Shown: positions 1,475 through 23,579, counted from the first letter of the stretch. The stretch: 64,000 nt of DNA from an uncultured Myxococcales bacterium (GCA_903842345.1 CAIMLR010000007.1:124001-188000), one strand, 5' to 3'. Numbers and translations are program-made. The notes: a model not told the origin generated them from the letters alone.

Positions 1475-1503
1475 TTGTCAGCCGTTCAGCTGATCGGCAC
1501 AAT
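1475..1503 (+). promoter_or_regulatory. Candidate sigma-70-type promoter of the RiPP-like operon
   Basis: TTGTCA (1475-1480, 5/6 to the -35 consensus) and CACAAT (1498-1503, 4/6 to the -10 consensus) are separated by exactly 17 bases. The site lies in the 160-bp gap after tsaB and would give a leader of roughly 115 bases before the PqqD-like gene. It was identified by eye only. Confidence 0.4.
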
Positions 1504-1624
1504 GAAGGCGGATGGGTGTCCGCTGAGTGCGCAACTTTTTTGCATCTCGCAGCAACAGAAGTTCAGGTGACCCGCGCGTCATGCGGGACAACGGTCACCG
1601 AGCCACCAAAGGATGCACTGCACG

Positions 1625-1975
1625 ATGACGGCAACCACGCAACTTCGCTACCGTTTGCACCCGCAAGCCGCGCACCGCAAGGTTGCCGGCGAAGTGTTTG
1701 TGGTCACGGGCGATCGGGCGTTTCATCGCATGCAAACCGCCACAGCCATCGCGCTTTTTGACGCGCTCGGGCAGGCCGAAGCGGGTGCAACCGCGGCGGA
1801 GCTCGTCGCGGCGCTGCGCCAACAATTCGATGTAAACAAAGTGATGGCGGAAAACGACGTCGCGGATTTTATTGAGACGCTCGTGACGCGCCAATTGGCC
1901 GTGCCGGTCCATCCGCCGCGCACCGCAGCCGATTGTCCCTCACCTGCCGACCCCCAAGCAGAGGTGACTCCATGA
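1625..1975 (+). CDS. PqqD-like RiPP recognition element (RRE) protein
   Basis: This 116-residue protein matches the PqqD pattern. An N-terminal beta-hairpin (HRKVAGEVFVVTGDRAFHRM) is followed by ATAIALFDALGQ, an acidic helix with 'TAAELVAALRQQFDV', and a final 'DVADFIETLVTRQLAV' helix. PqqD-like domains bind the leader of a ribosomal peptide and present it to modifying enzymes, usually a radical SAM protein. I chose ATG 1625 because AAAGGA (1608-1613) sits 11 bases upstream; an ATG at 1613 overlaps that element. The last 25 residues are Pro/Ala-rich and probably disordered. The stop overlaps the next start (ATGA at 1972-1975), so the giant lipoprotein is likely translationally coupled. It could be an RRE for the peptide at 9171, 7 kb downstream. 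The family call is firm; the partner is inferred. Confidence 0.8.
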   Translation: MTATTQLRYRLHPQAAHRKVAGEVFVVTGDRAFHRMQTATAIALFDALGQAEAGATAAELVAALRQQFDVNKVMAENDVADFIETLVTRQLAVPVHPPRTAADCPSPADPQAEVTP

Positions 1976-4900
1976 ATTCCAGCCATTCAAGCAACCGGTT
2001 CACGCCTCTGGCCCGCCAACCCCTGGTCTGGTTTAGCCTGCTCTGCGCCGCCACCGCGCTGTCTGCTTGCTCGCCGGACACACCCGCGCCGCATCCCGCG
2101 TGCATTTGGGAGGATGGCTGTCCGTCGGCGGACGCAGAAGGCGATGGCCAGGTCGGCGATTCCTCTGACGTGACGACGACGGTCACGCGGACGCTGGTCT
2201 TTTCAATTGATACCGCCATCGGTCCCGTGCTCACCGGCGACGTTTCCATCGCGACAATTGGCCCGAATGCGGACAAGGATCCGGCGACGGTCGGCGTGCA
2301 GGTCGATGTCTCCGTGACGACCGGCAACGTGCCTGACGGCGCGGCGCTGGAAGTGCTGCTGGACGGCGTCAAAGTGGGATCGCCGCAGGTCGTGCTCAAC
2401 AACGCGGGCCGGATCAATGGCATCACGTTGACGTGCACCGCGACCAACGCGCCGCACTCGATTTCCGTGCGCGCCATCGTCGACGCCGCCAAGGGCGACG
2501 CGGCTGTGAGCAAGGACAAGAGCCTGCTGGTCAAGTGCGCGCAGGCGTGCACCGCGACGGTCGATCCGCTGTCCCAGTCGTGCCTGACGCAGGACCAGGA
2601 TCCGCAGACGCCGGGTTTCCAGCAGAGTTTCATCGTGCACACGGACCAGTCGGATTGCACGGATGCGTACCTGCTCGTGGTGGGCCCGCCGGGAACGCCG
2701 ACTGAGACGGTGCATGTGGCGCTGAACGGTTCGACGTCCGTGCCCGTGATGGCGACGCTCGCGGTCGATGAAGCCGGGCTGATCGGCGTGACCGCGACGG
2801 TGATCGGCGTCGTCGAGGACATCAACAATCCGGATCGCCAGTCGGTGCCGTCCGCGCCGGTGAGCGCGGTCATCACGACGGAAGCGCCGACGATCGTGCT
2901 GATGCAGCCGGCTTCGGGCCAGATCAAGCTGAGCGACGACACCGATCCGGCGACGCCGGGCATCCAGATTACCCTCATCGGCATGGCGACAGCGCTGACG
3001 TCGGCCGACAAGAACGCGATCGAACTGTATGTCGACGGCACGCTGACGACGAAGACGACGCAGCAAATCGACGGCCAATTCGTGATTCCGCTGAGTTTCA
3101 CGACGACGGGGACGCACGCGCTGCTGGTGAAAGCGACGAACGGTTGCGGACTGAGCGGCCAGAAGTCGAAATCGCTGGCGGTGTTCGTCGACAAGGCAGG
3201 GCTCGCGATCCTCACGCCGACGCAGGATTTGGTGCTGCACGTGGCGGACGACCTGAACAAGACGACGGCCGACGTGCTCGACACGACGCTCTCCGTGGCT
3301 GTGACGACCGAGACCGCGGGCACGGACCTGGAGGTCTACTGCAAGCCCAAGATCGCCAAGGCCTACCCGACGACGCCGACCGCGACCGTCCTCTACAGCG
3401 ACGCGTCACAGCAGACGGTCGATATCCCGCTGTCGCTGTCGATCAGTCAGCTGGGCCAGGAAATCGAGTGCCGCGTGCAGGACAACTCGCCCAACCAGAC
3501 GGTGAGCGCGCCGGTGGGCTTTGTCGCCGCACTGCCGCCGCCGTGCCTGCATGTGATCACGCCCGCCGCGGCGGTGACCGTCACGACCGCTGGCGTGGAA
3601 TTCCTGCTGGCGACTTCCGGCTTGGATGGCCAGCTCGTGCAGGGCTACCTCATCACGCCGAGCGGCGTGCCGCTGGACGCCGTGGATCTGGGCACGCCGG
3701 TGACCAACGGTCTCGCCGGCACGTTCCCGCTGCTGGACGGCGGCGTACAGGTCCCGGACGGCACGTACACGCTGTCGTTCCAGGCGACGGATAAGTGGGG
3801 CAATCTCGCGGGTCAGTCGCTGTGCTCAGACGTCACGCGGACGGTGACCATCGACACGACGCCGCCGACGCTGGTGATTACGCTTCCGGTCAAGGCGACG
3901 CTGACGACGCTGGACGATCCGGACAGCGATCCCGCCAAGCCGGGCTACCAGATCGACGTGGAAGTGACGATTACGGATGCCCATGTGGTGTGCCTGAACG
4001 TCGACGGCGTCCTGTTCGCGTGCAATACCAACGTGCCAGAAGGCGCGGGCGTCGTCGTGTTCCACGATGTGACGCTGCAGCCGGGTCTGACGGCGCTCTC
4101 GGTGTACGGTTCGGACGTCAATGGCAACACCTCCGCGCCGGCTCCGACGCTCGTGACGCTGATCTCCGACGTGCCGATCGTGAAGTTCATCTCGCCAGTC
4201 GGCTCGCTGAAGGTCGCCACCGACAGCGTGACGTTCACGGTCAGCGTGACCAACCCGGCGGACGGCTTGCCCGTCGTGGCGGCAACGCTGGAGATCCTCC
4301 AGAACAGCGTGGCGATGCCCGTCACGCCGACGGAAACCGCACCGGGCGTCTACACCTTCACGTTGACCGGCTTCGCGTCGGGCGTGACGACCGTGCAAGT
4401 GGGCGCATTCGTGCCAGCGCAGCCTGAGAAGAAAGGCTATTCGGGCGAAATCACCGTCACCTTCAAGGGCGATCTGCCGACGGCGACGATCACCTCGCCG
4501 ACCGAGGGCCTCGTGTTCAACGCGAGCAACTTGACGTGCGCGCTGGGTCAGGCGGATTGCGTCCTGCCGGTCGCCGCGACCTTTACCAACGTCGAAGACG
4601 GCAGCGCGGTCGAATTGACCGTGACGTGTGGCGGCAGCGTCAGCAAGACCACCGGCACTGTGCAGGGCGGCAGCGCCAAGCTCGCCAACGTGAAGCTGCT
4701 GGACCAGAACGCGTGCGAGTTGTCGCTTGCGGTCACCGACGCTGCGGGCCAAACCGCGGTCTCGGCGGTCATTCACGTCACGGTGGATCGCGTCGCGCCG
4801 GTCTTTGGCGATCTCAAGTCGCCGACGCCGTACGCGGGCCTCACGCTGCTGGCGATCAACGACTTGGACGCCGATCCGACCAATGGCATGCAGGTGAACT

Positions 4901-7900
4901 GGGTCCAGCAGATCGCCGGGGTGCCCGCTGGCGCGACGGTGACGTGCGATGTGACGGACGATCTGGGCAAATCGGCGCCTGGCTTCTCGACCAACGTGGC
5001 AACGACGACGTCCGACGCGGTGTTCGAATCCGTGAATTTCGGCGCCATCACCCTGCCCAACGGCTACAACATCAAGATCGTCTGCACCGTGAAGGATCTC
5101 GCCGGCAACCAGAGCCAGAAGACGCTGCTCGCGCAGGTGCTCGCTGACTTGCCGCAGGTCGTCATGGGCACGCCGTACCCGAACGCCGATCCGTGCGCAG
5201 GCAACGGCGATTGCTCGTTTGGCGGCTTCTGCTACCAGAAAATCTGCACGGCGCCGTGGAACAAGGTCAGCGACCGCAAGCTCGCGTTCACGACCACCGG
5301 CCTGCCCGACGGCGCGCCTGCGCGGCTCTGCACCAACACGCCCGGCGTGACCGGCACCGCGTGCGCGACTGCCGGCTACGTCTCGATCGGCAGCACCACC
5401 ATCCAGAAATCCGCGGCGACGCTCGACCTCAGCACGCTCGCAGACGGCAGCTACCACGTGATGGTGGAAGTCTTCTTCGCCGCCAAGACCACGTGGGTGA
5501 CTTCACTGGACAGCGGCTTCCTCAAAGGTCGCGAGCGCGCGCTGCTCATCGACACCGTGCCGCCGCAAGTCGCGTCTGTGACAGGTCCGAGCGCGCCGGG
5601 CGTGCCCGCTGCTTGCCTCGCCGCCGCTTCGCAATCCGTGGCCGATGGCCAGCAGCCTGGCGGCAAGTTCCAGTTCCAGTTCGCCATGGCCAACGAGGAC
5701 GCAACCGTGTCCCTGCTCGTCAACAACGTCTCGGCCGGATCGCTGACGACGGTGGGCAAGAGCGGTTCGCTCGCCGTGACAATCGCAACGGAAGGCACGG
5801 CGACTTTTGAAACCGTGGCCGTCGATCTGGTCGGCAACGTCAGCGACATCCAGCAGTTGCCTTCGCTTTTCGTCGACACGATCGCGCCCAATGGCGCTTT
5901 CTCAACGCCGGACAAGTCGCCGCTCATCGTGGGCGACAGCCGCGACGTTGCCGTTGTGAGCGTGAATGACGACGTTGAAAACGAGCCGGTCACGGTCAAG
6001 GACCTCGGCCTCGTCAAGGCGGCGCAGAACTTCATCGCCGGCACCGCGCTCTTCCCGGACGCGACTTTTGGCCTGCTGTACGAAGGCTCGCACACGTTGA
6101 CCGCGGATCTGCGGGATCACTGCGCCAATACCTCCACGATCGGGACGACTCCCGCCTTGGTCGTTGTCGACACGCAGCCGCCGACGCTGACGATCACCGC
6201 GCCCTCCGAGGGATCGCTGTTCACGGACAACGACGATGCGGCGCCGGCGCAGAGCGGTTACCAGGTCGCGCTGACATTCTCGACGACCGGCGCGGCGACG
6301 TGGACGCTGGAGCTTGGCACGGACTGCGACTCCGGGTCCCTGAATTGCCCCAGCTATCAGCCGGCGGGGACCGGCACGATCGCCAATCCGGGTGGTTTGG
6401 AAGCGCCGACGCTTGTGACGGTGCCGTTTGGCAACACCGTGCACTACAAGTTCCGGCTGACTGCCGTGGACAGCGCCGGCAACAAGACCGTCGCGACGCG
6501 CGGCTTTGACGTGCTGCTGTCGGGCTGCCTCGTCAAGCTCACCGGCTTGCCGGGCAACGCGATGCTGAACACCCAAAAATGCGCGACGCCGGGGCAGAAT
6601 TGCGCCAGCGTCAGCCTGCCATTGACCGCGTCCTACGTCGGCCCGTGCGGTGCGGCGACGGCGATCAAGCTGATGAAGGGCGGCCTGGAGGTTGCCAGCG
6701 TCGCCCCGTCGGCGCAGGCCGCGGCGTTTGACGTGACAATCGTCGATGGCGACAACACCGATTTGGAAGCCGTGGTGTTTGAGGGGCTCAACGCCAAGGG
6801 TTCGTCCGGCAAGCTCGGCATCGCCGCGGACCTGACCAATCCAACCGTCAGCTTTGCCGCGGCGACTGTCCTCGGTTCGCCGACCGTGTCCGGGACGGCC
6901 GCGCTGCAAGGCAAGGACCAGGACTTGAACGCCGGCACGCCGGATCATCAGGTCCACCTGCAATTGGCGCTGGCGGATGCGCACTTGAATGGCGGAAAAC
7001 TCACGGCGCTCGACCGCACGGTCACTGGCGGCACGGCGCCGCTCAGCAATGCGTCCGTGACGCCGCCGGTCGCACTGACGGGCGCGGCGCAGCTGCTCGA
7101 CGTCCAATACGCCTCGCTGCTGCCCAATCAGGTCAACACGGTGAAGGCGACTGTGCAGGACAGCTTTGGCAATACCGGATCGGCGACCCTCGCCGTGACG
7201 GTGGACTGGCTGGCGCCGGCGGCGATTACGCTGGATGCGCTGGTGCCGGCGAACCTGAATCCGCGCCGTCCGTCGGCCAAGCTGACGTTCCAGGCGGTGG
7301 GCGACAACGGCGTGACCGGCAACGCGACGAGCTACCAAGTGCGGTATGCCAAGAAGGCGTTCACGACGCAGGCTGAGTTTGACGCCGCGTGCGATCCGAG
7401 CCAGATCGCGGGCTTCACCGCAGTCACGCCCGCCGCGTCGGGCGCATCGGACAGCGTGACGATCTCCGGCCCCGACGGCCGCAACCCGACCAACCTGTGC
7501 AAGTTCACGCCGTTTACGGACAACGGCATCTCGTCGTACTACTTCGCCATCGTGGCCGTCGACGCGGCGGGCAACAAAGGCCCGATGTCCAACGTCGTGT
7601 CGACCGACAAGTTGCGGCTGAACTACCAGCGCATCTCCAACAGCGGCGGTACGGGCTCCACGTTTGACCAACTCGCGTACCGCGCCCGCGTCTTTGGCCT
7701 GGGCGACCTGAACGGCGACGGCTTTGCCGATGTCGGTTTGGGCGGCGGCGCAACGACGCCTTTCTGCATCCTCTACGGCCGGGCGGGCAACGCTGACATC
7801 GACCTCGCGACCGAACCGGCGACGACGCTTCAGTGCCTTCCCAACGCGGGCGGCTTGGGCGGCGTTGTCGGCGGACCTGCGGACGTCAACGGCGACGGGC

Positions 7901-9129
7901 TCAGCGACCTCGTCATCGGCGCCAAGACCGGCAACGGCGTGCCGCGCGAAGTGTGGGTCTACCTCGGCAACAAGGGCGCGCAGTTGAACGCGACGCCTGC
8001 CGTCATCATCACGGGCGTCGTGGCGACGACCGCGACGGCGGCTGGACCGCAGCGCTTGCAGACCGTGGGCAACTTCAACGGCGACGTGTCGGCCAGCGGC
8101 AAGCCGGTCATGGACATCGCCGTGCGCAGCGCCAAGGACCTGAACTACGCGCAGTCGGAGACGGTCTACGTGATTCCGGGCAATCCCGGCTGGTCCAACG
8201 CTTCCCCGCTGACCATCACGCTGACCAACGCGCTGGACCGGAGCAACAACAACATTGTGCGCGTGCGTTTGAGCGATGGCACGAACACGTCCACGCTGTT
8301 CGGCCAGAACTTCCACGGCGGCAACGTGCTGCTGGAAAATGGCGGTGTCGGTCAGCAGTTTGACGAACTCGTCGTGTCGCAGCAGGCGTCGCCGCAGCAG
8401 GTCAACGTCATCCGCGGTCGCGAACTGTCGGGCGCGCTGGACCTGATGATGACGTCGGCGAGCACGGGCGTGCAGGCCAACGACACGGACACGGTGCGCA
8501 TCTTCCAGCAGACCGGGACCGGCCAGCAGTCCTTTGGCGCCTACTTCGATCTTGTCGAATTCGATGGCAAGCCCGGTCTTGACCTGGCCATTCAGCACCA
8601 GACCGGCGGCGTGGCGGACCATCCCGGCTTCTACTGGCTGCGCGGCTCGGCGATTCAGGCTGCGGCCGTCGCGCCGCCGCAGAACACGATCACGCTGTAC
8701 ATCACCGCGGCGGTCGCGGGCTTCACGGATCTGTTCTCCGTCGGCGCTGGCTACCTCAGTTGGTCGTTCGCGTGGGGTCCGCAGAACACCGGCAATTTCT
8801 TCGATGACCCGAGCACGGGCCTGCACACGGACGTCATGTACGCGCGCCCGCCGTTCACCGGCGCCACGGGCGGTGGCCAGCAGGTCATCTTGCGCATGGC
8901 GGTGCCGCGGTCAGAAACGGCGAATGAAGTGGGTTTTGTTTACGAAGACTTGGTGATTACCGATCCGTTCGTGCCGACCAACAGCCTCTTCGGCTACAAT
9001 ACGACGGCGGCCAGCGGAATCGGCTTCGCGCCGGCAGGCGACTTCAACAAGGACGGCTTCGTCGACTTGATCATCGGCTCAGCCGACGGCACGGGCGGCG
9101 TCAAGGGCAGCACGCTCATCGTTTACTAA
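1972..9129 (+). CDS. Giant (2385 aa) lipoprotein with Ig-like segments and C-terminal FG-GAP repeats
   Basis: The N-terminus is a lipoprotein signal: a hydrophobic stretch ending in LSAC, with the lipidated residue at Cys33. The body is a long series of Ig/cadherin-like beta segments, often introduced by D(T/R)xxPxxxI linkers (about residues 628, 940, 1193, 1301 and 1399), with scattered Cys pairs and an EGF-like cluster (CAGNGDCSFGGFCYQKIC, about residue 1075). From about residue 1905 it turns into FG-GAP/integrin-alpha-like units with Ca-binding loops (DLNGDGFADVG, DVNGDGLSDLVIG, DFNKDGFVDLIIG) that run to the end. It is probably anchored in the outer membrane and exposed. The start is the ATG at 1972 in an ATGA overlap with the RRE gene; a TTG 39 bases upstream would spoil the signal peptide. 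No enzymatic domain is visible. Its location inside a RiPP-like operon is the odd feature; adhesion or peptide display is only a guess. Confidence 0.85.
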   Translation: MNSSHSSNRFTPLARQPLVWFSLLCAATALSACSPDTPAPHPACIWEDGCPSADAEGDGQVGDSSDVTTTVTRTLVFSIDTAIGPVLTGDVSIATIGPNADKDPATVGVQVDVSVTTGNVPDGAALEVLLDGVKVGSPQVVLNNAGRINGITLTCTATNAPHSISVRAIVDAAKGDAAVSKDKSLLVKCAQACTATVDPLSQSCLTQDQDPQTPGFQQSFIVHTDQSDCTDAYLLVVGPPGTPTETVHVALNGSTSVPVMATLAVDEAGLIGVTATVIGVVEDINNPDRQSVPSAPVSAVITTEAPTIVLMQPASGQIKLSDDTDPATPGIQITLIGMATALTSADKNAIELYVDGTLTTKTTQQIDGQFVIPLSFTTTGTHALLVKATNGCGLSGQKSKSLAVFVDKAGLAILTPTQDLVLHVADDLNKTTADVLDTTLSVAVTTETAGTDLEVYCKPKIAKAYPTTPTATVLYSDASQQTVDIPLSLSISQLGQEIECRVQDNSPNQTVSAPVGFVAALPPPCLHVITPAAAVTVTTAGVEFLLATSGLDGQLVQGYLITPSGVPLDAVDLGTPVTNGLAGTFPLLDGGVQVPDGTYTLSFQATDKWGNLAGQSLCSDVTRTVTIDTTPPTLVITLPVKATLTTLDDPDSDPAKPGYQIDVEVTITDAHVVCLNVDGVLFACNTNVPEGAGVVVFHDVTLQPGLTALSVYGSDVNGNTSAPAPTLVTLISDVPIVKFISPVGSLKVATDSVTFTVSVTNPADGLPVVAATLEILQNSVAMPVTPTETAPGVYTFTLTGFASGVTTVQVGAFVPAQPEKKGYSGEITVTFKGDLPTATITSPTEGLVFNASNLTCALGQADCVLPVAATFTNVEDGSAVELTVTCGGSVSKTTGTVQGGSAKLANVKLLDQNACELSLAVTDAAGQTAVSAVIHVTVDRVAPVFGDLKSPTPYAGLTLLAINDLDADPTNGMQVNWVQQIAGVPAGATVTCDVTDDLGKSAPGFSTNVATTTSDAVFESVNFGAITLPNGYNIKIVCTVKDLAGNQSQKTLLAQVLADLPQVVMGTPYPNADPCAGNGDCSFGGFCYQKICTAPWNKVSDRKLAFTTTGLPDGAPARLCTNTPGVTGTACATAGYVSIGSTTIQKSAATLDLSTLADGSYHVMVEVFFAAKTTWVTSLDSGFLKGRERALLIDTVPPQVASVTGPSAPGVPAACLAAASQSVADGQQPGGKFQFQFAMANEDATVSLLVNNVSAGSLTTVGKSGSLAVTIATEGTATFETVAVDLVGNVSDIQQLPSLFVDTIAPNGAFSTPDKSPLIVGDSRDVAVVSVNDDVENEPVTVKDLGLVKAAQNFIAGTALFPDATFGLLYEGSHTLTADLRDHCANTSTIGTTPALVVVDTQPPTLTITAPSEGSLFTDNDDAAPAQSGYQVALTFSTTGAATWTLELGTDCDSGSLNCPSYQPAGTGTIANPGGLEAPTLVTVPFGNTVHYKFRLTAVDSAGNKTVATRGFDVLLSGCLVKLTGLPGNAMLNTQKCATPGQNCASVSLPLTASYVGPCGAATAIKLMKGGLEVASVAPSAQAAAFDVTIVDGDNTDLEAVVFEGLNAKGSSGKLGIAADLTNPTVSFAAATVLGSPTVSGTAALQGKDQDLNAGTPDHQVHLQLALADAHLNGGKLTALDRTVTGGTAPLSNASVTPPVALTGAAQLLDVQYASLLPNQVNTVKATVQDSFGNTGSATLAVTVDWLAPAAITLDALVPANLNPRRPSAKLTFQAVGDNGVTGNATSYQVRYAKKAFTTQAEFDAACDPSQIAGFTAVTPAASGASDSVTISGPDGRNPTNLCKFTPFTDNGISSYYFAIVAVDAAGNKGPMSNVVSTDKLRLNYQRISNSGGTGSTFDQLAYRARVFGLGDLNGDGFADVGLGGGATTPFCILYGRAGNADIDLATEPATTLQCLPNAGGLGGVVGGPADVNGDGLSDLVIGAKTGNGVPREVWVYLGNKGAQLNATPAVIITGVVATTATAAGPQRLQTVGNFNGDVSASGKPVMDIAVRSAKDLNYAQSETVYVIPGNPGWSNASPLTITLTNALDRSNNNIVRVRLSDGTNTSTLFGQNFHGGNVLLENGGVGQQFDELVVSQQASPQQVNVIRGRELSGALDLMMTSASTGVQANDTDTVRIFQQTGTGQQSFGAYFDLVEFDGKPGLDLAIQHQTGGVADHPGFYWLRGSAIQAAAVAPPQNTITLYITAAVAGFTDLFSVGAGYLSWSFAWGPQNTGNFFDDPSTGLHTDVMYARPPFTGATGGGQQVILRMAVPRSETANEVGFVYEDLVITDPFVPTNSLFGYNTTAASGIGFAPAGDFNKDGFVDLIIGSADGTGGVKGSTLIVY

Positions 9130-9170
9130 TCAGGCCAATCAGCGTCCACAAGGCGGCGAAGGGGAAACAC

Positions 9171-9347
9171 ATGAACCAGACGGAACAACAGCAGAACATC
9201 GAACAGCGCCAGGGCGATTGCCAGTCGGCGCTGCGGCCGTACGTCAAGCCGGAAGTGGAGACGCTGGGCGGCGCGCTGACCACGCTGCTGGCGTCGGGCT
9301 GCCAATGCCCGATTTGCCCGCCGGACCCCAGCGCCGACAACACCTGA
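9171..9347 (+). CDS. Putative RiPP precursor peptide (58 aa)
   Basis: This small gene lies between the giant lipoprotein and the kinase-like gene, with GAAGGGG (9158-9164) placed 6 bases before ATG 9171. The polar, Gln-rich N-terminus (residues 1-20) is followed by RPYVKPEVETLGG (22-34). That segment fits the YxxPxxxxLG leader motif bound by PqqD-like recognition elements in lasso and related peptides. Next come ALTTLLASG and a Cys/Pro-rich end, CQCPICPPDPSADNT, with Cys44, Cys46 and Cys49. The layout is that of a leader plus a Cys-containing core, and the flanking genes are maturases. The Cys residues could be substrates for radical SAM thioether formation. The product structure is unknown. 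An N-terminal signal peptide is absent. Confidence 0.75.
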   Translation: MNQTEQQQNIEQRQGDCQSALRPYVKPEVETLGGALTTLLASGCQCPICPPDPSADNT

Positions 9348-9349
9348 AC

Positions 9350-10189
9350 GTGACCCGCACGTTGGCCCCTTCCGTTCGGCGTTGGGCGTCGCGTTTTGGC
9401 GATACGGCCTATGCGGTGGACCTGCCAGAGGCGTTTGGCGCCGTGCGTCGGCCATGGCGTGGGCCACTCGGCGCGGATGTCGCCTTCCAGTTTGCCGCTG
9501 AAGCGACCGCGGCGCCTTTGGGGGAAGCGGCAACGCGGTTCTCCCGCCTTGACGCCGATGGCTTCGCGTTTACCGCCGCTTCGTGTCACGGCGCGGGTTC
9601 ATGGGCGCAGCGCGCCGGGACCGTCTACCTGCATGACGGGGAGCAATCGCCGCTGGCCCGCGTCCAGATGCTGCAGGAAGCGCTGTTTGCCCCGGTTTAC
9701 GGCCAGTTGCTCCTGCAAGGCGGCCTCCTCCTGCACGCCGCGACGCTCTGGATCGACGGCCGCGCCTACGTGGTGGCGGGCTACTCGACCGCCGGCAAGA
9801 CGACCCTGAGCGGGCGTTTTGCGCCGAATTGGCTGAGCGACGAGCACGCGTTCCTCGCCCGTGATGGCGACCAGTGGCACGTGCTGCGCCACATCGATTT
9901 CCGCGGCAATGAAGGCGATTTCCCGTGGCGCGCACCGGTCGCAGGCCTGCTCTGGCTCGGCCCGGACCGGAGCCAGTCGCGGGTCGCGCCGTTGTCGCCT
10001 GGGGACGCACTGCAGCGGCTCCTCCCGCAGGCTTTGGTCGCAGGTCCGCCGACTTCCGCGCTTGTGCTGGACGCAGTCGCGCACCTGTGTCAGCAATTGC
10101 CCGTGATGGAACTGAGTCACAACCTTGCAACTTCCGTAGCAGATTTGGCGGAAATGATCGCGGGAGCCAGCCATGCCGCAAGGGGATGA
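9350..10189 (+). CDS. HPr kinase-like P-loop protein of the RiPP-like operon
   Basis: This 279-residue protein resembles the HprK/PEPCK-like proteins found beside PqqD-type and lasso peptide genes. LLLHAATLWIDGRAYVVAG leads into a P-loop, GYSTAGKTT (residues 144-152), then LSDEHAFL, the acidic segment that follows the P-loop in HPr kinases. The C-terminus has Leu/Ala helices ending in LAEMIAG. I chose GTG 9350 because it lies two bases after the precursor stop, which fits translational coupling; the same frame is open upstream, but that stretch overlaps the precursor gene. The next gene overlaps its 3' end by 17 bases. Members of this family are thought to phosphorylate Ser/Thr or to assist maturation; whether the precursor is its substrate here is inference. 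Confidence 0.7.
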   Translation: MTRTLAPSVRRWASRFGDTAYAVDLPEAFGAVRRPWRGPLGADVAFQFAAEATAAPLGEAATRFSRLDADGFAFTAASCHGAGSWAQRAGTVYLHDGEQSPLARVQMLQEALFAPVYGQLLLQGGLLLHAATLWIDGRAYVVAGYSTAGKTTLSGRFAPNWLSDEHAFLARDGDQWHVLRHIDFRGNEGDFPWRAPVAGLLWLGPDRSQSRVAPLSPGDALQRLLPQALVAGPPTSALVLDAVAHLCQQLPVMELSHNLATSVADLAEMIAGASHAARG

Positions 10190-11360
10190 CGCCAGCCAAC
10201 TCGACAGCTTTCTCACGGCGCTGAAGGCGGCCTGGGCAACCGAAGATCGACCCGTCAGCGCCCACCTGGACGTGACGTATCGCTGCGACCTCGATTGCGC
10301 GCACTGCTACCTCGACAACCGCACGACCTGGCCGGAGATGACAACGGCAGAGTGGCTCGACGTGCTGCAGCAACTGCACGATGCCGGCGTTCTGTTCCTC
10401 GTATGGAGCGGCGGCGATGTGCTCATGCGCAGCGATTTTGCCACGCTCCTGACGCGCGCCGCGGAGCTGGGGCTGCTGAGTCGGGTCAAGACCCACGGCG
10501 GCCAGGTCGACGCCAACTGGGCGCGCCTTTTCGCCGACAGCAAGGTCATCCGCACCGACGTCAGCGTGTACAGCTTGCGGCCAGAGATCCACGACGCGCT
10601 GACGCGGCGACCGGGTTCGCTCGTCAACACGCTGAACGGCGTCGCGGCATTGCGGGCGGCGGGTGTGCCGGTCAAGGTTTCCTGCTGGGTGCAGCCGGCC
10701 ATCATCGACGAAATTGGCGCGCTCAGTCAGCACTTTGCCGCGATGGGCTGCACGATCAGCTTTGAAACGCGCACGACCCTGGACCTTTCCGCGTCGGCCA
10801 ATCTGGACGCGATGCGGCTGGAGGGCGATGACCTCCTGCGCGCGCGCGTCGCGATCCTGCAGGCGCAGCCCGTGGCCAGACCGACCGCGCTCGCCGATCG
10901 CACCGTTCAGGATCCCTGCGGCGCGGGCCGAACCCTCGTGTACATCAGCCCGGACGGCGAACTCTGGCCGTGCATCAACTTCCCGATGGCGCTGGGCAAC
11001 CTGCGCGAGAAGCCGTTGCTGGAGATCTGGCGGGAATCCGCGGCCCGCAAGAGCCTCGTGGCGTGGGACAACCGCGCGCGCACGTCGTGCCAAAGCTGCG
11101 CCGGCAGCGGGTTCTGCTTCTTCTGCCCGGGCGACGCGTACAAGACCACCGGCGATTTCCGCAAGGCGCCCAATCTTTTCCACGCCGAGACCCGCGCCAA
11201 AATGATCGCGTGGGAGCAGGTCAACGGCGACACGTTCAGCGCCGCGGACTGGTCCAGCGTGCCGGACGAAAGCGGCCGCGCGCCCGCCACCAAACAGTTC
11301 ATCTTCCCGATCCACCGACCCAAACGCGGCGCCGGCGCCCGGGTTACGCAGGCCAAATGA
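10173..11360 (+). CDS. Radical SAM/SPASM peptide maturase
   Basis: This 395-residue enzyme has the [4Fe-4S]-SAM motif CDLDCAHC (Cys38, Cys42, Cys45), preceded by the usual strand HLDVTYR. A 'GG' motif for SAM binding follows (WSGGD), then a TIM-barrel-length middle. A SPASM-type C-terminal cluster domain has Cys249, Cys267, Cys306, Cys309, Cys315 and Cys318 and the typical ISPDGELWPC and LGNLREKPLLEIW segments. SPASM proteins modify ribosomal peptides (thioethers, C-C crosslinks, epimerisation) using auxiliary iron-sulfur clusters. ATG 10173 follows GGGAG by seven bases and overlaps the kinase-like gene by 17 bases; the stop overlaps the next start. It probably acts on the peptide at 9171 with the PqqD-like protein. 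The reaction type cannot be read from the sequence. Confidence 0.88.
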   Translation: MPQGDDASQLDSFLTALKAAWATEDRPVSAHLDVTYRCDLDCAHCYLDNRTTWPEMTTAEWLDVLQQLHDAGVLFLVWSGGDVLMRSDFATLLTRAAELGLLSRVKTHGGQVDANWARLFADSKVIRTDVSVYSLRPEIHDALTRRPGSLVNTLNGVAALRAAGVPVKVSCWVQPAIIDEIGALSQHFAAMGCTISFETRTTLDLSASANLDAMRLEGDDLLRARVAILQAQPVARPTALADRTVQDPCGAGRTLVYISPDGELWPCINFPMALGNLREKPLLEIWRESAARKSLVAWDNRARTSCQSCAGSGFCFFCPGDAYKTTGDFRKAPNLFHAETRAKMIAWEQVNGDTFSAADWSSVPDESGRAPATKQFIFPIHRPKRGAGARVTQAK

Positions 11361-11761
11361 CGCTTGTTTGGCATGACCTCACCGGGCGGTCCATGTGGCC
11401 GTTGGGGGCGCCGATGCAGGCCGGTGTGGCGCCGGTTGTGGCGAGGACGCTGCAGGTGGGCGACATGATTGCCTTCATCGCCAGCGACGCGCCCGTCCTC
11501 TGGCTGCATCGCGTGGTGCGGGTTGAAGCGGACGCGGTCGTCACGCGCGGCGATACCAACGGCTACGACGACCCGCCCGTGCCGTTCACCGCAGTGCTTG
11601 GGCGGGTCGACGCGGTGCGGATTGGCGCGCTGGTGTTGCCGCTGCCGCATTCCGGGCGCCTTGGCGCGCTGCAGCGCCGCGCCGGCATCGCGTGGTCGCA
11701 TTTCGCGCCGGCGTTGCGGCGTTTGCGCGCGGGACGCGGGCCGGCGCGAAAAGGCGCATGA
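11357..11761 (+). CDS. Soluble S26-type (His-dyad) signal peptidase-like protein
   Basis: This 134-residue protein has the signal peptidase signatures of the SipW/Sec11 type. GRSMWPL carries the likely nucleophile Ser12, LHRVVRVEA puts His51 where bacterial LepB has Lys, and TRGDTNGYDD supplies Asp66 and Asp71/72. It has no N-terminal membrane helix, so it should be cytoplasmic. That fits removal of a peptide leader better than cleavage of exported proteins. Small S24/S26 proteins of this kind occur next to PqqD and HprK-like genes in RiPP clusters. It starts in an ATGA overlap with the radical SAM gene. The C-terminus is Arg-rich (RRLRAGRGPARKGA). Leader cleavage is inferred. Confidence 0.72.
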   Translation: MTLVWHDLTGRSMWPLGAPMQAGVAPVVARTLQVGDMIAFIASDAPVLWLHRVVRVEADAVVTRGDTNGYDDPPVPFTAVLGRVDAVRIGALVLPLPHSGRLGALQRRAGIAWSHFAPALRRLRAGRGPARKGA

Positions 11762-19730: not shown

Positions 19731-19898
19731 TCGGCGGGGCCGAAGTCCAATCCGCGAACTGGCTGCCAGGACGCGCCGTGGCCAAAATGCCGGCGCCGGA
19801 CATGGCGTCGTCACGCGCTTTTCGTGCAAATGCCATCGGATGCTGGCAGACTAGTTCGGCAGGCGCAAAGCCGGAACAACAGCAAAGCCAACCGCAAC

Positions 19899-22007
19899 AT
19901 GACCCACCAGCATACGCCGCGGACCACCGGCCCCCTTCCCGCCGCTTCCCAGGAAATTCTCGATCCGCGGCACGCGATCAACCGCGAGCTGAGCTCCCTG
20001 GCGTTTCAACGGCGCGTGCTGTCGATGGCGCTGGACCCGGCGGTGCCTCTGCTGGAGCGCCTGCGCTTTGTGACGATCACGTGCGCCAACCTCGATGAGT
20101 TTTTTGAGATCCGCGTGTCCCGCCTGCAGCGGCAGGTCGAGCTGGGTCTGACCGCGAGCGGCACCGATGGCCTGCCGCCCAACGAGACGCTCAATCGCAT
20201 CCACGACGAAGCGCGGGCAATCGTCGCGGAGCAGTACCGCATCTGGTCCGAAGTGCTGCTGCCGGAGCTGGCCACAGCGGGCATCCGCCTCCTGCAGTCC
20301 GAGGAGTGGACGAGCGATCAGACGAGCTGGGTGGAAACCTATTTTCGCCGCGAAGTCGTGCCGGTGCTGACACCCATCGGCCTGGATCCCGCGCATCCGT
20401 TTCCGCACGTGCAGAACAAGAACCAGAACCTGCTGGTTTCGCTCACCGGTCAGGACGCTTTTGGCCGGCAATCGGGCATCGCCATCGTGCAGGTGCCGCG
20501 CTCGCTGCCGCGCGTGCTCGCGATCCCGGGGACCAAGGCCGGCGTCCACGCGTTCGTGCTGCTCTCCACGGTCATCCAGGCGTGCGTGGGCGAGCTGTTC
20601 CCGGGCATGGCCGTGACAAACGTGGTGTCCTTTCGCGTGACGCGCGACGCCGATCTGTGGCTGGCGGAAGAAGACGCGGACGATTTGCTGGAAGCGCTGC
20701 AAGGCGAACTCCATCGGCGGCGCTACGGCGATGCGGTGCGGCTGGAAGTGGCCGGCCATTGCCCGGACGCGATGGCGGAGTTCCTGCTGGGCGAGTTTGA
20801 GCTCGATCCGATTGACCTGTATCGCGTGGGTGGCCCGGTCAACCTGCACCGCGTCGGCGCGATCCTGGACATGTGCGACCGCCCCGAGCTGCGCTATCCG
20901 CCGTACACGCCGCGTTTGCCGCGCGGCTGGCAGGACGAAGACGATCGGTTTGAATGGCTGCGACGCGCCGATTTGCTGCTGCACCATCCGTATGAGGCCG
21001 CGGCGCCCGTGCTCGAGTTCCTGCGCCAAGCCGCGGACGATCCGGACGTGCTGGCGATCAAACAGACGCTGTACCGCACGGGACCGCGATCGCCGTACGT
21101 GGAGGCGCTGGCGCAGGCGGCGCGCAACGGCAAGGACGTCACCGCGGTTGTGGAGCTGCGCGCGCGTTTTGACGAAGCGGCCAACATCGACCTCGCGGCG
21201 CAGCTGCAAAAAGCCGGCGCGAATGTGGTGTACGGCGTCGTGGGCTACAAGACCCACGCCAAGATGCTGCTCGTGGTGCGACGTGAAGGCGACGGGATTC
21301 GCCGGTACGTGCATCTCGGGACCGGCAACTATCACCCGCAAACCGCGCGGACGTACACGGATTTGGGCCTGCTGACGTCAGACCCGGTGATTGGCGAGGA
21401 CGTCCACAAGGTATTCCTGCAGCTGACCGGGCTGGGCACGCCGCGCAAGCTGGAGCGGCTGCTGGAATCGCCGTTCACGCTGGGCCGCGAGGTGATCGCG
21501 CGCATCGACGCGCAGGCGGCGCGCGCCCGGGCGGGGCTACCGTCGCGGATCCAGGCCAAGATGAACGCGCTGAGCGAGCCCAACGTGATCGCCGCCCTCT
21601 ACCGCGCCTCGCAGGCGGGCGTGCCCATCGACCTGCTCGTGCGCGGCATTTGCTGCCTGCGGCCGGGGATGCCGGGCGTGTCGGAGACGATTCGCGTGCG
21701 GTCGATTGTCGGCCGCTTCCTGGAGCACGCGCGCGTGTGGTGCTTTGGCGAAGGCGATGACGCTGAAGTGTGGTTCGCGAGCGCCGATTGGATGTCGCGC
21801 AGCTTCACTCGGCGCGTTGAAGTGGCGACGCCGGTGCGCAACGCGGATTTGCGCGCGCGGATTATCGAGGAATGTCTGGCGCAGCCGCTGCGGGACAACG
21901 TGCAAGCGTGGCTGCTGGCGGTGGACGGAACGTACACGCGGGCGACGCCGGGCGATGCAATCGCGTTTGGCGTACAGGATTGGCTGGCCGGGCGCGGGGA
22001 AAGCTGA
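19899..22007 (+). CDS. ppk1: Polyphosphate kinase 1
   Basis: This 702-residue enzyme makes long-chain polyphosphate from ATP, reversibly, at the inner face of the membrane. It begins with INRELSSLAFQRRVL, the usual PPK1 N-domain, and has FEIRVSRLQRQVELG and the phospholipase-D-like C-domains. YKTHAKML places the phosphorylated His at residue 453, and VGRFLEHARVWCF carries the second conserved His. ATG 19899 was chosen because it begins the conserved part; the frame is open back to 19824. The exopolyphosphatase gene follows, so both halves of polyphosphate turnover are encoded together. Confidence 0.92.
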   Translation: MTHQHTPRTTGPLPAASQEILDPRHAINRELSSLAFQRRVLSMALDPAVPLLERLRFVTITCANLDEFFEIRVSRLQRQVELGLTASGTDGLPPNETLNRIHDEARAIVAEQYRIWSEVLLPELATAGIRLLQSEEWTSDQTSWVETYFRREVVPVLTPIGLDPAHPFPHVQNKNQNLLVSLTGQDAFGRQSGIAIVQVPRSLPRVLAIPGTKAGVHAFVLLSTVIQACVGELFPGMAVTNVVSFRVTRDADLWLAEEDADDLLEALQGELHRRRYGDAVRLEVAGHCPDAMAEFLLGEFELDPIDLYRVGGPVNLHRVGAILDMCDRPELRYPPYTPRLPRGWQDEDDRFEWLRRADLLLHHPYEAAAPVLEFLRQAADDPDVLAIKQTLYRTGPRSPYVEALAQAARNGKDVTAVVELRARFDEAANIDLAAQLQKAGANVVYGVVGYKTHAKMLLVVRREGDGIRRYVHLGTGNYHPQTARTYTDLGLLTSDPVIGEDVHKVFLQLTGLGTPRKLERLLESPFTLGREVIARIDAQAARARAGLPSRIQAKMNALSEPNVIAALYRASQAGVPIDLLVRGICCLRPGMPGVSETIRVRSIVGRFLEHARVWCFGEGDDAEVWFASADWMSRSFTRRVEVATPVRNADLRARIIEECLAQPLRDNVQAWLLAVDGTYTRATPGDAIAFGVQDWLAGRGES

Positions 22008-22079
22008 CAAGCCCGCCGCTTGACCAAAACCGTCCTCAGCGCCACTCTGCCACCAGCCGCACGTTCGGCGCGAGGCACC

Positions 22080-23579
22080 ATGGCCGATCCCTCCCTCATC
22101 GCCGCCGTCGACCTTGGCTCCAACAGCTTCCACCTCGTCGTGGCGCGCGTACTGCAAGGCCAGATCGTCGTCGTCGATCGGATGCGAGAGACCACGCGGC
22201 TTGCGGCTGGCCTCGATCACAACCGCCGGCTTGACCCGGCGCTGATGCACCGCGCGCTGGGCACGCTCACCCAGTTTGGCCAGCGGATCCGCGAAGTGCC
22301 GCGGGACTCCCTGCGCGTGGTCGGCACGGCGACGCTGCGGCGTGCCAAAAATGCCGACGAATTCATGGACGCGGCCAAAGTCGCGCTCGGCGTGCCGATT
22401 GAAGTGCTGAGCGGACGCGAGGAAGCGCGGCTCATCTACCTCGGCGTGGCGCACAGCCTGGAAGTCCCCGACGGCCGCCGTCTGGTCGTCGATATCGGCG
22501 GCGGGAGCACGGAAATCATCCTCGGCGAGCGATTTGACCCGCTGGAAACCGAGAGCGCCGAGATCGGCTGCGTGACCTGGACTAGCGAGTATTTTGCCGA
22601 CGGCGAGCTCAAGAACGCCAACTTTCGCGCGGCGGAGACGGCGGCGAGCTTGGAATTGCAGCACATGGCGCGCCGCTACCGCACGCTGGGCTGGGACGAG
22701 GCGGTCGGCTCATCGGGCACGGTCGAGGCCATTGAAGGCGTGCTGCGCGCGATGGGCTGGAGCAAACGCGGTATCACGGCGCGCGGCCTCGCGAAGCTGC
22801 GGGAGGAGCTGATCAAGTTCGGCAAGATCCAGAAGGTCGACCTGCCCTCGCTGCGGCCCGACCGCGTCGCAGTATTTCCGGCCGGCGTGGCAATCCTGAC
22901 GGCGCTGTTTGAGACGTTCGACATTCGCAAGATGGAAGCGGCGACGGGCGCGCTGCGCGAAGGCGTGCTGTACGACCTCCTGGGTCGCATCCGCCACGAG
23001 GACCTGCGCGATCGCACGGTGATGGCGCTGGCGGCGCGGTGGCATGCCGACGAGGAACAGGCAGCGCGCGTCGAACGGACGGCGCTGAACCTGCTGAAGC
23101 AAGTGGGCGGCGAGTGGATCAACGACGAACCGTTGGCGCGGCAGCTGTTGAGCTGGTCGGCGCGGCTGCACGAAGTCGGCCAGACGATCGCCCACAGCGG
23201 CTACCACAAGCACGGCGCGTACCTGGTGGCCAATTCCGACATGCCCGGCTTCTCACGCGACGACCAGATGCTGCTGGCGAGCCTGATTCGCGTCCATCGC
23301 CGCAAGCTGGCGACGCTGTTCCGCGACACGCCGCCGCTGCGTTCCGAGTTCGCCCTGCGGCTGGCGGTGCTGTTGCGGCTCGCCGTGTTGCTGCATCGCG
23401 CGCGGAGTCCGCAGCCGCTGCCGCATGTGGCGATCCATGCCGAGGGCCGCAAAGTCAGCGTGACGCTGCCCGCGCGCTGGCTGGAAGATCACAGCCTCGT
23501 CGCCGCCGATCTGCGGTCAGAGGTCGACGAACTGAGCGTGATCGGCATGGAACTTGTGGTGAAGCCGGTCGAGCGCTAG
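22080..23579 (+). CDS. ppx: Exopolyphosphatase / Ppx-GppA phosphatase
   Basis: This 499-residue ASKHA protein has the two phosphate-binding loops of the Ppx/GppA family, AAVDLGSNSFHLVV at the start and VVDIGGGSTEIILGE at about residue 140, plus VGTATLRRAKN. The C-terminal part is an HD-like helical domain (LHEVGQTIAHSGYHKHG). It hydrolyses terminal phosphates of polyphosphate and may also act on pppGpp. The frame is open from a TTG at 22020, but ATG 22080 gives the usual N-terminus and has GCGAGG before it. It follows ppk1 by about 70 bases. Confidence 0.9.
   Translation: MADPSLIAAVDLGSNSFHLVVARVLQGQIVVVDRMRETTRLAAGLDHNRRLDPALMHRALGTLTQFGQRIREVPRDSLRVVGTATLRRAKNADEFMDAAKVALGVPIEVLSGREEARLIYLGVAHSLEVPDGRRLVVDIGGGSTEIILGERFDPLETESAEIGCVTWTSEYFADGELKNANFRAAETAASLELQHMARRYRTLGWDEAVGSSGTVEAIEGVLRAMGWSKRGITARGLAKLREELIKFGKIQKVDLPSLRPDRVAVFPAGVAILTALFETFDIRKMEAATGALREGVLYDLLGRIRHEDLRDRTVMALAARWHADEEQAARVERTALNLLKQVGGEWINDEPLARQLLSWSARLHEVGQTIAHSGYHKHGAYLVANSDMPGFSRDDQMLLASLIRVHRRKLATLFRDTPPLRSEFALRLAVLLRLAVLLHRARSPQPLPHVAIHAEGRKVSVTLPARWLEDHSLVAADLRSEVDELSVIGMELVVKPVER

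Follow-up and report, generated by a model that had tools for sequence, protein, structure and literature searches.

The DNA analyzed here, in the following called the window, is a stretch of 64,000 nucleotides (GCA_903842345.1 CAIMLR010000007.1:124001-188000) from an uncultured freshwater Myxococcales bacterium. At positions 1625-11761 it carries six genes on the same strand, encoding a PqqD-like protein, a giant lipoprotein, a short peptide, an HprK-like kinase, a radical SAM/SPASM enzyme, and an S26-type protease. Our analysis points to a vertically inherited chromosomal operon for a ribosomally synthesized and post-translationally modified peptide (RiPP), the short, acidic, modified product of which probably works together with the giant lipoprotein at the outer cell surface. 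Most work on RiPPs concerns secreted antibiotics, signals, or cofactors that spread horizontally; the cassette described here has a fixed chromosomal place in most members of one bacterial class and is accompanied by a giant surface protein. If it is true that the peptide serves the lipoprotein, RiPP chemistry would be a way to equip surface proteins. A preceding sequence-only reading had proposed a RiPP-like operon at this site, a view well supported by a [Y/W]xxP leader with an invariant Pro, a RiPP recognition element (RRE), and enzymes whose catalytic residues appear intact.

Linkage of the peptide cassette to a giant lipoprotein

The lipoprotein gene (1972..9129, plus strand, as are all features of the operon) encodes 2385 amino acids (aa) with a signal peptide and a lipobox (..ATALSAC33), the latter also present in most relatives, followed by Ig-like repeats and then C-terminal FG-GAP repeats (Pfam Big_13, Big_3_3, FG-GAP). 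The expectation that the gene order recurs in related genomes was borne out: gene set, order, and strand are identical in 20 of 20 same-family loci, one of which is truncated by a contig end and so lacks PqqD and part of the lipoprotein, and the lipoproteins of the complete loci share 37-79% identity across most of their length. In the class survey, 52 genomes were searched, the named relatives being mostly 'uncultured Myxococcales' metagenome-assembled genomes (MAGs), with several isolate names lake-derived. The lipoprotein was found in 43 of them, in single copy except for genes split between contigs. In 37 genomes, its gene and a radical SAM orthologue are about 1 kb apart, G041 being a 38th case with the radical SAM gene cut by the contig end; the other five (G019, G031, G034, G038, G042) apparently reflect contig ends as well, located within ~410 bases in three cases and inferred in two. 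Two class genomes carry a radical SAM gene but no lipoprotein; in the one examined (G046, contig of locus L097), a Peptidase_C25 protein is present instead, and the peptide has a WxxP leader. A [Y/W/F]xxP peptide gene is situated between lipoprotein and kinase in all 31 class loci inspected that contain both. The distance correlation was 0.81 between lipoprotein and radical SAM enzyme and 0.93 between lipoprotein and the flanking LysM protein; inheritance appears to be largely vertical, with a chromosomal cassette of fixed position.

Such conservation could also arise if the neighbors were functionally unrelated and held together by slow rearrangement, and indeed the flanking TsaB, M50, YbgF, and LysM genes are likewise syntenic within the family. 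This notion is largely refuted and has next to no credit left, since the association survives in other families despite rearranged gene order and exchanged partners are again large secreted proteins. In a phylum survey of 284 genomes, 75 contain a close radical SAM relative, and 20 loci with such a relative were fetched. In most of these, a protein of ~1200-2400 aa adjoins the enzymes, its N-terminus typically lipoprotein-like. The lipoprotein lies upstream of the enzymes in one family (e.g., L147, L148, L151-L154, L159) and downstream in four other families (L160-L163), and all three downstream lipoproteins that were scanned (L160, L161, L163) have Big_13 and/or FG-GAP domains. Peptides behind the downstream lipoproteins were later located by a peptide profile search, directly after or overlapping the lipoprotein stop in L160, L161, and L163, and nearby in L162. 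Wherever a peptide was detected, its gene comes after that of the lipoprotein, in either gene order; a lipoprotein-peptide pair re-used in two arrangements is the strongest single indication that the two share a function. Not all loci conform: L149, L155, and L150 are truncated, and L157 and L165 gave no lipoprotein match. A single-protein lipoprotein search of 11 genomes, of low sensitivity, returned one match, L166 (G256:C287), a PqqD-lipoprotein pair cut by a contig end; the close radical SAM relative of that genome lies on another contig without HprK or PqqD.

Beyond the phylum, related cassettes in Elusimicrobia, Deltaproteobacteria, and Planctomycetes-Verrucomicrobia-Chlamydiae (PVC) bacteria adjoin other large secreted proteins of fibronectin-III (fn3), EGF, or gingipain type. 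In Elusimicrobia, where the gene order is HprK-PqqD-peptide-S26-radical SAM, a large open reading frame (ORF) begins 0.1-0.65 kb after the radical SAM gene in 13 loci. These ORFs span 741 to >3000 aa, many of them truncated where the locus ends, and the one scanned contains 12 fn3 domains. An EGF-repeat protein directly precedes the peptide in the deltaproteobacterial locus L119, Peptidase_C25 (gingipain-type) proteins adjoin the cassette in L097, L120, and L132, and L133 is organized like L132, with a large ORF. These exchanges bear on the idea that the lipoprotein itself is the substrate of the enzymes and that the small peptide merely recruits or regulates them. The inseparability of lipoprotein and enzymes in the class would fit such a scenario. 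We nevertheless consider it improbable, because unrelated fn3, EGF, and C25 proteins replace the lipoprotein elsewhere while the YxxP/WxxP peptide persists, and because binding of YxxP leaders is an established property of the RRE family (PMC13381572).

The sequence-only reading had further suggested that the product may act with, or be attached to, the surface protein. The link as such has gained support from the near-complete linkage in the class and from the recurrence of a large secreted protein plus cassette in several lineages. In our view, a functional pairing of peptide cassette and lipoprotein is likely, while physical attachment of the peptide to the lipoprotein is doubtful at best.

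A few observations on individual loci may be added. The L097 and L120 peptides combine a WxxP leader with the conserved core AYQCSSGPAPVSGSxTEGCPP. In L104 (2363-7105) and comparable loci of Elusimicrobia, the cassette is preceded by pseudopilin-like genes (encoded N-termini, e.g., RRGVTLMELLIVVGI) and by a minor-pilin-like ORF of 850 aa, and an apparent Rrf2-type regulator, identified by eye, lies between radical SAM gene and giant ORF. In L126 (1-1596), the stop-to-stop frame of the lipoprotein starts at the end of a second radical-SAM-like ORF. Finally, a MAG labelled Klebsiella pneumoniae (L070, CAMDBH010000004.1) has a myxobacterial cassette plus lipoprotein; the label looks wrong.

Precursor peptide, RRE, and predicted processing enzymes

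Peptide genes were found by listing every small ORF between lipoprotein and kinase, a position occupied by a small ORF in 20 of 20 same-family loci; a motif search alone missed several loci. The window gene (9171..9347) encodes 58 aa. Its leader motif YVKP (residues 24-27, codons 9240..9251) is the predicted RRE contact, based on the peptide alignment and on the RRE-binding role described for this motif (PMC13381572). Among 32 aligned relatives, P27 is invariant, Y24 is kept in at least 90%, and the first motif position is always Y, W, or F. The predicted core starts around residue 38 (TLLASGCQCPICPPDPSADNT) and contains a [S/T]x(0-5)C element that is kept in 31 of the 32 peptides; here it is formed by Ser42-Gly43-Cys44 (9294..9302), the candidate modified residues. 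The peptide tails are strongly acidic (76 acidic versus 3 basic residues over the 32 aligned peptides). Pfam and NCBIfam scans of the window peptide matched no family. Leader motif plus Cys occurred in 5 of 450 nearby control ORFs, a contrast that is somewhat circular because the peptides were partly selected by that motif; position and alignment are independent support for the reality of the peptide. The Cys-rich product envisaged by the sequence-only reading applies to the genus of the window, whose peptides have three Cys, but not in general: all 32 cores contain Cys, in 10 of them a single one.

Ideas on how the peptide might be processed can be taken from the linear polyphosphorylated peptides (LPPs) of Bacillota, published in May 2026 (PMC13381572, Nat Commun 2026;17:6633). 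According to the experiments reported there, the RRE binds the YxxP leader, an HprK-like kinase polyphosphorylates a core Ser, and the signal-peptidase-like LppS (Ser29/His68/Asp93) cleaves the leader with the help of the RRE. In the window, the PqqD-like RRE (116 aa, 1625..1975, with an alternative ATG start possible at 1613) matches PF05402 above cut-off (E 6e-7; alignment of 27 relatives). As this PqqD-fold protein has a short precursor and modifying enzymes as neighbors, the locus qualifies, as far as gene content can tell, as a discrete-RRE RiPP operon. By homology to the RREs of LPPs and lasso peptides, the protein very likely binds the YxxP leader.

The radical SAM/SPASM enzyme (395 aa, 10173..11360; PF04055, Radical_SAM E 4e-18; PF13186, SPASM E 9e-12) has its CxxxCxxC residues C38, C42, and C45 and its SPASM Cys residues 249, 267, 306, 309, 315, and 318 invariant or conserved to at least 90% in the alignment. 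We regard the peptide as its likely substrate; it would introduce a link into the core, with the conserved Cys as the probable site, a Cys-centered link being the natural guess for a radical SAM step. For the kinase (9350..10189, GTG start, no ATG), the HprK-like identity is weak by sequence (best match ScmC, E 4.7e-8, under cut-off). H129 and the Walker A residues G149-K150-T152 are invariant in 33 sequences, and an AlphaFold2 model with a predicted local distance difference test (pLDDT) score of 94.7 retrieved PEPCK (5e-7) and HPr kinase (9.5e-5) in Foldseek. We lean somewhat towards phosphorylation of the peptide by this kinase. The acceptor would be a core Ser, here probably Ser42 of LLASGC and in other lineages probably the C-terminal Ser; the latter is common in peptides outside the class and mostly lost within it, where the Ser before Cys stays, so the candidate kinase site may have moved. 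The soluble S26 protease (134 aa, 11357..11761) resembles archaeal-type signal peptidases (TIGR02228, E 1.8e-6, under the curated cut-off). S12 and H51 are invariant, D66 and D72 conserved to at least 90% in the alignment, and no transmembrane segment was seen in the protein. Its AlphaFold2 model (pLDDT 94.0) gave LexA and signal peptidases as best, yet weak, Foldseek matches (E 0.013 and above). The Ser-to-His spacing of 39 is identical to that of LppS (S29/H68; PMC13381572), and by analogy with LppS the protein is likely to be the leader peptidase, which would cut in the cytosol around residues 37-39 and so release a peptide of about (T)LLASGCQCPICPPDPSADNT. All three modifying or trimming enzymes are thus predicted to be catalytically intact. 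As the gene pairing suggests, the mature peptide would then be exported to serve the lipoprotein as ligand, cofactor, or subunit.

Known systems and the possible role of the peptide

The sequence-only reading knew of no described system with this gene set. This stands for the radical SAM enzyme, which the main text of the LPP paper does not mention, and for the lipoprotein, as the sections of that paper considered here name no surface-protein partner, but not for the set as a whole: LPPs, the closest described system, share four of the six operon parts. The likeness extends to the YxxP-type leader (Y/W/F-x-x-P in 32 of 32 aligned peptides), the discrete RRE, the HprK-like kinase retaining Walker A and the PEPCK/HprK fold, the Ser-His-Asp-type leader protease (S12, H51, D66/D72), and a variable C-terminal core. 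The full LPP consensus YxxPxVLxHQxIxFETxxS is not matched; the window peptide YVKPEVETLGGALTTLLAS fits YxxPxV and one Ser only, and the FET element of the consensus is seen in Elusimicrobial relatives (YxKP..FET). Core Cys and vertical inheritance further set the Myxococcota operon apart. What looks new here is the presence of a radical SAM enzyme in an LPP-like RiPP cassette that has a giant surface protein as its conserved partner. The YxxP/RRE/HprK/signal-peptidase logic would then extend beyond Bacillota and gain a radical SAM step, and predictions on leader binding and cleavage are therefore testable at once. The associated partner protein might also offer a concrete handle on LPP function.

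Paeninodin-type lasso peptides (PMC8498205) likewise combine a YxxP/WxxP leader with a discrete PqqD-like RRE and an HprK-like kinase, and their kinase site is the C-terminal Ser, a residue also found in many relatives outside the class of the window; here, however, a radical SAM enzyme takes the place of lasso cyclase (C) and B2 cysteine protease. A lasso peptide was rejected, as neither a B2 protease nor an asparagine-synthetase-like cyclase was found in the operon and the flanking ORFs scanned. The combination of HprK-like, PqqD-like, and radical SAM/SPASM proteins also recalls the SynChlorMet cassette of NCBIfam. The matches are weak and all far below cut-off: 32.7 of 125 bits for the kinase with ScmC, 86.1 of 400 for the radical SAM enzyme with ScmE (E 2e-24), and 13.6 of 100 for the PqqD-like protein with ScmD (E 0.06). 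To our knowledge, the SynChlorMet cassette has no S26 or lipoprotein partner, and our literature search returned no paper that deals with SynChlorMet or with HprK, radical SAM, and PqqD in combination. The sactipeptide/ranthipeptide models AlbA, StsB, and SkfB (NCBIfam) gave matches below cut-off as well.

With PqqA/PqqD/PqqE, the operon shares a separate PqqD-like chaperone, a SPASM radical enzyme, and a short peptide substrate, which raises the question of whether a small cofactor, redox or other, of pyrroloquinoline quinone (PQQ) or mycofactocin type is built on the peptide. We consider this very improbable, and cofactor biosynthesis was rejected in view of the variable core: core residues and length vary, whereas a cofactor demands conservation. 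The operon moreover has a kinase and an S26 protease and no cofactor chemistry genes, no cognate dehydrogenase was seen, and the PQQ and mycofactocin models matched far under cut-off.

More serious is the alternative that the RiPP is a diffusible signal or an antimicrobial whose receptor, immunity factor, or kin-recognition partner is the lipoprotein. The core is hypervariable between genera of one family, with leader and enzymes conserved, and a giant surface protein is always at hand. We still rate this alternative as unlikely. Single copy, fixed chromosomal position, and mostly vertical inheritance differ from the patchy, Bacillota-only distribution of LPPs, which was read as that of conflict genes (PMC13381572); no exporter gene is present in the operon; and in Elusimicrobia the peptide is nearly constant (MKKKKxYxKPxxKTEKVFETAALACGKC..., with a C-terminal Ser in 18 of 18 listed), including the core.

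Several points nevertheless weigh against a peptide dedicated to the lipoprotein. Because inheritance is mostly vertical, the genome counts are not independent events; the independent evidence is a handful of differing partner types and gene orders. Linkage speaks for functional association, not contact. A single shared role is not obvious, because the core is hypervariable in the class and nearly constant in Elusimicrobia. An NTP transferase and an MsbA-like exporter, which belong to the LPP core set as published, were found neither in the operon nor in the ten flanking ORFs scanned. With regard to loci that keep the enzymes and lose the peptide or RRE, no intact locus of the class is of this kind, but in a few distant cassettes no peptide or RRE was detected (L149, L157, L088, L091; some at contig edges) or, adding L165, no lipoprotein was recognized. 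With these points in mind, we put forward only tentatively the more specific model of a two-part surface system, conserved across Myxococcota, in which the RiPP is a dedicated part of the giant lipoprotein, be it a ligand, a prosthetic group, or a covalent tag; in other phyla, the same cassette would serve surface proteins of fn3, EGF, and gingipain type.

Transcription and flanking genes

It is plausible from the gene layout that the operon is transcribed as a single unit. Of the overlaps cited for this by the sequence-only reading, the ATGA overlaps at 1972 (PqqD/lipoprotein) and 11357 (radical SAM/S26) and the 17 bases shared by the HprK and radical SAM genes (10173-10189) are present. The ATGA at 11758 exists in the DNA, but its start codon, belonging to the next gene for a TPR/YbgF-like protein, is not established because relatives conserve that protein only from about residue 10-24 or later. 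The sole promoter-like site upstream of the operon is at 1475-1503; two such sites in the region versus 1.1 expected correspond to chance frequency. About 8 kb downstream, at 19824-23579, lie genes for a polyphosphate kinase and a Ppx/GppA protein, probably unrelated, yet worth noting near a member of a kinase family capable of polyphosphorylation.

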